NCBI RefSeq assembly: GCF_902506105.1 | Contig: NZ_LR733304.1 | Coordinates: 1,907,458 to 1,971,457, forward strand | Reading direction: 5' to 3' | Source of the DNA: Aeromicrobium sp. 9AM | Lineage (GTDB): Bacteria > Actinomycetota > Actinomycetes > Propionibacteriales > Nocardioidaceae | Length of the DNA stretch: 64,000 nt | Shown here: positions 45,214 through 45,538 of the stretch, piece by piece | Position numbering within the stretch: the first letter of the stretch is position 1 | Layout: each line of letters opens with the position of its first letter | Made by a program: the position numbers and the translations under genes | The notes under the pieces: generated by a model | Database searches by the model: none | What the model was told of the DNA's origin: nothing | The model's input: only the letters and a program-made list of their open reading frames with translations

Positions 45214-45276
45214 CTCAATTGGCAGAGCAGCTGACTCTTAATCAGCGGGTTCGGGGTTCGAGTCCCTGATGCCGCA
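45204..45276 (+). tRNA. tRNA-Lys(CTT), prophage integration target
   Basis: 73 nt. Acceptor GCGGCAT/ATGCCGC, anticodon stem GCTGA/TCAGC with loop CTCTTAA, anticodon CTT. Positions 45243-45276 belong to the attachment core, so this part now comes from the phage and restores an intact tRNA. The first 10 nt overlap the upstream gene's stop codon. Confidence 0.97.
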
Positions 45277-45538
45277 CAACGTGGCCCCCGTCCGGATCTC
45301 CGGCGGGGGCCTCACCCGTTTCTAGCCACTGGACCGAGACTCCCGTCGCCATCGCCCAGGCAGCGAGTAGCGGCCGCTTCAGCGGCCCGGTGCCATTCTC
45401 GGCGCGCTTAACCGTGCCGACGCTCATCTCGATTGCGTCGCCCAGCTGCGCCTGCGTGTAGCCGGCGGCTCGGCGCGCGAGCTCGAGCCGCAGCGGCTTG
45501 GTCATCAGCACCGCCCCGTTGTCTACCTGGATTGTCAT
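45242..45538 (-). CDS. phage immunity repressor, prophage (truncated) form
   Basis: 98 aa from ATG 45538, or 87 aa from ATG 45505 (better spaced behind a GGGG). A Cro/CI-type HTH (YTQAQLGDAIEMSVGTVKRAE) covers most of the protein. The last 11 residues, VRHQGLEPRTR, are encoded by the complement of the tRNA 3' end, that is by the att core. The stop TGA (45244-45242) uses one host base just outside the core. In the circular phage genome that base is A, the codon becomes TGT, and the frame continues 21 codons to a protein ending EEEIAA, stopping at 61738. This is the arrangement of integration-dependent immunity. The promoter region contains inverted repeats that could be its operators. Confidence 0.85.
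   Translation of the reverse strand: MTIQVDNGAVLMTKPLRLELARRAAGYTQAQLGDAIEMSVGTVKRAENGTGPLKRPLLAAWAMATGVSVQWLETGEAPAGDPDGGHVVRHQGLEPRTR
45243..45277. other. attL core (35 bp)
   Basis: The 35 bases from CAGCGGGTTCGG to GATGCCGCAC are identical to 61802-61836. The identity extends to the preceding CTTAA with one mismatch (T at 45242 versus A at 61801). That single difference creates the stop codon of the prophage form of the repressor. Confidence 0.97.
45283..45311. terminator. phage-borne terminator after tRNA-Lys, inside the repressor gene
   Basis: GGCCCCCG (45283-45290) pairs with CGGGGGCC (45304-45311), with a further CCGG pairing in the loop. It replaces the original tRNA-Lys terminator, now displaced to 61838-61873. 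On the other strand the same bases encode repressor residues EAPAGDPDGGH. Confidence 0.75.

Follow-up and report, generated by a model that had tools for sequence, protein, structure and literature searches.

A probable integration-dependent immunity switch in an Aeromicrobium prophage whose repressor gene overlaps a tRNA-Lys gene and contains a hairpin

Here, we describe a prophage in a 64,000-nucleotide stretch of Aeromicrobium DNA (hereafter, the window). Direct comparison of both prophage ends revealed two identical copies of a 35-bp att core, of which the left copy (attL) lies within an intact tRNA-Lys gene (Table 1); around the right copy (attR), ARAGORN found no tRNA. Based on Pfam and PHROG, the DNA between the cores has genes for terminase, portal, major head protein, tape measure, lysis, and integration, and it appears to represent a complete temperate siphophage in just 16.5 kb, similar in size to the small Gordonia phages. 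In the early region, a 250-aa ORF (46474-47223) lacks a Pfam match and resembles a PHROG of unknown function only weakly.

Table 1. Features of the prophage and its integration site (window coordinates)
Feature	Position	Strand	Basis
Host tRNA-Lys(CTT), intact at attL	45204..45277	+	ARAGORN
Prophage-form repressor, 98 aa, HTH_31/HTH_3, phrog_2328 transcriptional repressor	45242..45538	-	ORF, Pfam, PHROG
att core, attL copy (tRNA 3' half and repressor C-terminal codons)	45243..45277	.	Identical copies
Prophage between both cores, 16,524 bases	45278..61801	.	att repeats and phage gene annotation
Hairpin inside the repressor gene, candidate replacement tRNA terminator	45281..45313	+ (tRNA strand)	Folding energy
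Perfect 10-bp inverted repeat CGTTACTCGC/GCGAGTAACG, candidate operators	45547..45605 (arms 45547-45556, 45596-45605)	.	Repeat search
Divergent excisionase-like HTH_17 gene, 64 aa, phrog_66	45640..45834	+	ORF, Pfam, PHROG
Tyrosine integrase, 269 aa, end MAAAAA	60728..61537	-	ORF, Pfam, PHROG
50-aa ORF between rep and int in viral order	61591..61743	-	Translation of rebuilt attP
attR phage arm, codes for the viral repressor tail, end IEYSEEEIAA	61741..61801	-	Rebuilt attP
att core, attR copy	61802..61836	.	Identical copies
Host hairpin terminator of tRNA-Lys, displaced to attR	61838..61873	+	Folding

The repressor gene (rep) starts with an ATG at 45538; its frame crosses the core and ends with a TGA at 45244-45242, the last base of which, T45242, comes from the host. 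Past the core, the match between attL and attR resumes as CTTAA after a single mismatch (T45242/A61801), which is the third base of the repressor stop codon. Because the mismatch sits in the stop codon, a rebuilt attP is valid only if A61801 is phage DNA; with a crossover to the left of the mismatch, attP would carry T, and the viral form of the repressor would stop as well. T is found at the position equivalent to 45242 in all 29 tRNA-Lys loci examined in the same genus (30 were returned, one being the window's own copy), showing that T45242 is host DNA, that A61801 is phage DNA, and that the viral codon is TGT. In 10 of these 29 loci, TGTGAAGGCC follows, as it does in the right flank of the window.

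In the rebuilt attP, the core lies within the repressor reading frame, the stop codon is replaced by TGT, and the frame continues for 21 codons to give a protein of 119 aa that ends with PIEYSEEEIAA before a TGA. The host tmRNA tag is ADSKRTDFALAA, ending with ALAA, and the C-terminal EEEIAA of the viral repressor resembles an ssrA tag in sequence. These observations agree with what the first-pass annotation had claimed, i.e., a repressor frame that runs through the core to a TGA completed by T45242 (coordinates and sequence coincide), an A61801 of phage origin that makes the attP codon TGT, a viral repressor with 21 additional residues that are lost on integration, and an -AA terminus like that of ssrA tags.

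In the circular phage order derived from the rebuilt attP, rep, the 50-aa ORF, and int are arranged head to tail on one strand, and the ATG of the 50-aa ORF overlaps the TGA of the long repressor form. The integrase, encoded downstream of rep in this order, has an end that is ssrA-like in sequence; among family loci with an upstream tRNA-like fragment, the integrase ends with Ala or Ser in 11 of 14, and many of these ends are Ala-rich; the two family integrases without such a fragment end with GGEL and PDSG. The inverted repeat is placed between rep and the divergent HTH_17 gene. Its 9-base half-site GTTACTCGC has no other exact match in the window, and the total of half-sites with one mismatch in the window is not above chance. 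Scans of 45200-45900 and 60700-61950 gave no sigma-70-like promoter.

The visibility of both prophage ends opens the switch to a statistical test instead of anecdote. We searched 49 same-genus, 341 family, and 394 class genomes (overlapping sets) for related integrases and repressors. Among the candidates, 15 prophages have a repeated tRNA-derived core, and the attL tRNA is intact in all 15. An HTH-type ORF enters the core in 13 of them, with targets in tRNA-Lys (four), tRNA-Arg (six), and tRNA-Asn (three). The Pfam HTH cut-off is reached by 12 of these 13 repressors, G248 being below it; the two prophages outside the 13 (G682 and G694) have no repressor-like ORF across the core and no Pfam family in the longest ORF of each. 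The search for att cores inside the repressor genes of related prophages that had been proposed earlier shows that the design recurs. A second core was not found at 11 integrase loci (G024, G189, G207, G503, G559, G670, G494, two loci in G662, G354, and G418), in some cases because the contig ended or because the sequence covered was only about 40 kb. We left out G323 and G242 (short contigs), G346 (contig end), G540 (stop inside the match), G642, G683, and G440, and a 31-bp repeat in G695 was dropped as a core because it is not a tRNA. G318 (L101, L137) has three tRNA-Asn copies, two being full-length genes and one a partial copy near the integrase. Initially, G318 was read with a 74-bp repeat, giving identical viral and prophage forms; this reading was replaced by one with the integrase-proximal 39-bp copy, which is our choice and favors the count.

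As a control, we used the 18 other frames that are open through the same cores; the counts for these frames were made by hand. A host-supplied in-frame stop is present at the core edge in 12 of the 13 prophages versus 4 of the 18 other frames (Fisher, 1.4e-4; the rows are related and the value is generous). In these 12 prophages, the host stop starts from 0.7 codon before to 1.7 codons after the core edge, and the viral frame continues for 9 to 76 codons beyond it. Similarly, 12 of the 13 viral repressors terminate in Ala or Ser. Such an end is seen in 2 of the 18 other frames (Fisher, 8e-6) and, among ordinary CDS taken from nine small-phage loci, in 13 of 54 (Fisher, 9e-6); these are again generous values from related rows. 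The viral ends are IAA, SVA, RAS, TAS, VAS, ASA, ESA, VVS, RRA, RAS, LAA, and RAA, and the last two residues follow the pattern [ASV][AS] in 11 of 13 viral repressors versus 2 of the 54 ordinary CDS. The exception, G112, ends with RDG and has neither the host stop nor the Ala/Ser end. In G112 (L099, L134), an alternative frame through the core would have both, i.e., a viral end DVELVA and a host stop at the core edge; the anomaly may be a frameshift or an assembly error.

These comparisons bear on the idea that the overlap is incidental, i.e., that the repressor merely ends in the core, that both forms are stable and active, and that the IAA end arose by chance. The tail sequences are not conserved among relatives, which fits this idea; however, the excess of host stops and of small terminal residues over the controls, together with the same pattern in isolated phages (the viral repressor ends with Ala or Ser in 11 of 11 further phages examined), makes it highly improbable. 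Alternatively, integration could switch the C-terminus, with the tail altering activity (oligomerization, DNA binding, or RNA polymerase contacts) rather than stability. Passages of published work lend this alternative some support in that the long form of the BPs repressor was considered to raise Prep activity modestly (PMC4557955) and ssrA-like ends are missing from some comparable M. abscessus repressors (PMC8092301); moreover, some of the tails found here end in other small residues (SVA, ESA, VVS, and RRA). Nevertheless, passages of the same BPs study describe that the long and short forms bind DNA alike and that the long form is degraded (PMC4557955), and the property common to the tails is a small C-terminal residue. 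We therefore consider an effect on activity alone unlikely. Rather, the sequence data make it very likely that the window prophage carries an integration-dependent immunity switch of the BPs type.

Not every member of the repressor family is tied to the switch, because a tRNA overlaps the end of the repressor frame in 4 of the 10 family genomes with a repressor match (the window, G008, G088, and G122), and the other 6 have no tRNA within a locus of 3.2 kb or less. The named genome collection yielded 11 repressor loci, and 8 of the 10 examined end in an intact tRNA-Lys (six) or tRNA-Asn (two). These are from Corynebacterium senegalense, C. oculi, a Corynebacterium MAG, a Marmoricola MAG, Nesterenkonia, a Micrococcus MAG, a Mycobacterium MAG, and Microbacterium dauci, and represent the repressor-side end only, except for the Marmoricola MAG, whose locus is the same DNA as that of G088, a genome of the same family. 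Marmoricola belongs to the Nocardioidaceae, which supports the host family suggested by the first-pass annotation. The remaining loci in this collection comprise one that runs off its contig (L173), one without a tRNA (L177), and one outside the 10 (L179). An IMG/VR scan gave one relative (L073), which we do not count separately because the G008 locus is matched by the same probes.

Two reading frames are in use through the tRNA-Lys core. A frame similar to VRHQGLEPRTR is used in the window, Gordonia phages Rahul and Coeur, G088, G488, C. senegalense, and C. oculi, and one similar to AIRDSNPEPAD is used in McGonagall, SallySpecial, Emperor, EricDab, GMA5, GRU3, G257, Nesterenkonia, Micrococcus, and the Corynebacterium MAG. 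In both frames, the stop derives from the complement of the anticodon arm. The third frame, which is open for longer, is used by none of the 17 (a hand count of rows that are not independent). This frame usage suggests that the host-supplied stop is under selection.

Of the 29 tRNA-Lys loci examined in the same genus, 28 have a hairpin of at least 10 pairs after the tRNA gene. The hairpin inside the repressor gene of the window prophage adjoins the core, and corresponding structures are found in most relatives. Specifically, the first 50 bases after the core have a z score below -2.5 in 26 of 30 arms (mean -5.2, dinucleotide shuffles) versus 9 of 180 control windows further on; the signal is missing in four arms (G034, G122, G290, and L174). 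At least 10 pairs are formed in 27 of the 30 arms, and the 30 comprise 29 distinct 5' arms. In 16 aligned arms, pairing is 77%, falling to 45-53% when the arms are slid, and both-side changes occur in 26 cells compared with a shuffled mean of 10 (0 of 500 shuffles were as high). In the same aligned arms, the number of pairs with a both-side change (7 versus 6.2) and the number of pair types (16 versus 15.3) are not above those of the shuffles, and RNAalifold gave no covariation bonus. For 9 of the 13 prophages, at most 27 of 300 random synonymous replacements of the 17 hairpin codons reached equal stability (in the window, 10 of 300), with no effect in G034, G122, G290, and G248; for the next 17 codons upstream, there was no such effect in any of the 13 (lowest, 36 of 300). 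Among nine further phages with a recognizable core, six have the hairpin (Cracklewink, Wizard, UmaThurman, Donovan, Phayonce, and Arri), and it was not found in Angel, Paito, and Phishy; no core motif was found in Dmitri and Nyceirae. In G682 and G694 (L161-L164, L122, L123), where related integrases are found at tRNA-Gly and the core has no repressor overlap, a hairpin is still present at the same position.

Based on these sequence comparisons, the embedded hairpin probably replaces the tRNA terminator that is displaced by integration, and the simplest reading is that some phages are obliged to encode such a replacement terminator within the repressor gene. It is possible, but rather doubtful, that the hairpin is instead a binding site for integrase or excisionase or a structure of the rep mRNA. 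It adjoins the core, a complementary stem would form in the rep mRNA, the 3' tails of the hairpins are not strongly T-rich, and the two covariation measures that failed to exceed the shuffles, like the missing RNAalifold bonus, also fit such a role. However, the near absence of shared 5' arms fits selected pairing rather than a bound sequence, as does the excess of both-side changes; the hairpin occupies the position at which nearly all host loci carry their own; and it persists in the two prophages in which no repressor overlaps the core. Also, in cluster K1 mycobacteriophages, a stem-loop next to the attP core is labeled in a figure legend as a putative terminator and is placed between the core and the P3 site (PMC3203893). 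This stem-loop adjoins the core as in the window, whereas the window's hairpin lies inside the repressor reading frame. In our literature searches and in passages of PMC4557955, PMC9262239, and PMC10865867, no repressor gene of this kind was described as containing a terminator or hairpin, and passages of PMC9635641 with the word "terminator" contain nothing on one.

Returning to the replacement terminator, we slightly favor a broader model in which, in most phages with the switch, the end of the repressor gene would overlay three elements: an integration-dependent C-terminus, the 3' end of a tRNA as the core, and, just upstream, a terminator hairpin on the opposite strand. In this model, codon choice is bent to keep the hairpin, the frame is chosen so that the complement of the anticodon arm gives the stop, and the terminator, acting only when the phage is integrated, protects the tRNA as well as the repressor, the latter against antisense transcription.

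Altogether, we propose the following scheme for the window prophage. As the sequence shows, recombination with the 3' half of tRNA-Lys brings the host T beside the core and changes TGT to TGA, leaving the tRNA intact; the prophage repressor is then 98 aa without the tail, and int is relocated to the far prophage end, at a distance from the sequence upstream of rep. The viral tail is probably an ssrA-like degron comparable to the host tmRNA tag, and the viral repressor would be destroyed, resulting in lysis unless integration occurs. The integrase with its A-rich end may also be unstable, which would keep lysogeny rare. The short repressor would bind the repeats between rep and the excisionase-like gene and provide immunity only after integration, and the antisense hairpin in the repressor gene would replace the displaced terminator and shield rep from transcription coming from the tRNA.

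Switches of this kind are known, also from the closest phages, and the host family Nocardioidaceae is new. Our findings extend the minimal lysis-lysogeny switch of Mycobacterium and Gordonia phages to Nocardioidaceae prophages, and the repressor/tRNA overlaps in Corynebacterium, Nesterenkonia, Micrococcus, and Microbacterium genomes suggest a still wider spread; our literature searches returned no relevant-looking report for Nocardioides or Corynebacterium. To a specialist, the hairpin embedded in rep and the frame in which the core is read may come as a surprise. In particular, the hairpin offers a testable answer to the question of how a tRNA gene that is transcribed toward the repressor gene is kept working.

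The best matches of the repressor and integrase proteins are in small Gordonia phages of 16-18 kb, comprising McGonagall, Jeanie, GMA5, and GRU3 of cluster CW as well as Rahul, Coeur, Emperor, SallySpecial, and EricDab, with identities of 40-52% (repressor) and 44-50% (integrase) among the best matches listed. In all eight small Gordonia phages examined (Rahul, Coeur, McGonagall, SallySpecial, Emperor, EricDab, GMA5, and GRU3), rep contains the core, which matches that of the window at 34 of 35 positions, and the viral repressor terminates in -AA. GRU3 (L011) has two copies of the 35-bp core 77 bases apart, at 1759 and 1836, one inside rep and the other just past the annotated end of rep. A search of phages at the DNA level gave just a 44-base match, to Rhodococcus phage RRH1 (two records), and no whole-genome similarity; because the match is so short, we regard the window prophage as a distant relative and not as a member of the CW cluster. 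Unlike the Gordonia phages, it has a Nocardioidaceae host and the extra 50-aa ORF before int, and some Gordonia phages read the core in a frame different from that of the window. For the four cluster CW phages, integration-dependent immunity and an attB in tRNA-Lys are already described in passages of PMC5559632.

Further afield, the core of Curtobacterium phage Barebow is less alike (27 of 35 bases), and its viral repressor ends with -AS. With gp33 of Angel, a cluster G mycobacteriophage of the BPs group, the window repressor shares 41% identity over 81 residues; the Angel viral repressor is 136 aa and ends with KAS. The founding paper on this kind of switch is reportedly that of Broussard in 2013. 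The BPs group shares with the window the rep-int order, an attP in rep, and an attB in a tRNA gene; it differs in that the attB of BPs is in tRNA-Arg, the Angel tail is KAS and not AA, and Angel and Paito are without the hairpin. In BPs gp33-136, the substitution A135E is reported to be stabilizing in passages of PMC4557955, and, accordingly, an -AS end may be a working tag. BPs-type systems are described in passages of PMC9262239 and PMC9635641 as being without arm-type integrase sites around the core. Among M. abscessus prophages, one of which (prophiGD43A-5) appears among the sequence matches to the window proteins, passages of PMC8092301 list MabB, C, H, K, N, and O as having integration-dependent immunity; the stop of MabC, K, N, and O arises at attL from the first base of bacterial DNA, and several of the repressors end with AA. 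These prophages thus share the host-made stop at attL and the AA ends with the window prophage but are larger and mycobacterial. Finally, the agreement with the published BPs design is close: in BPs, the first host base takes the place of the third base of a Cys codon and turns it into a stop (passages of PMC9262239), a change that is matched by TGT to TGA in the window.
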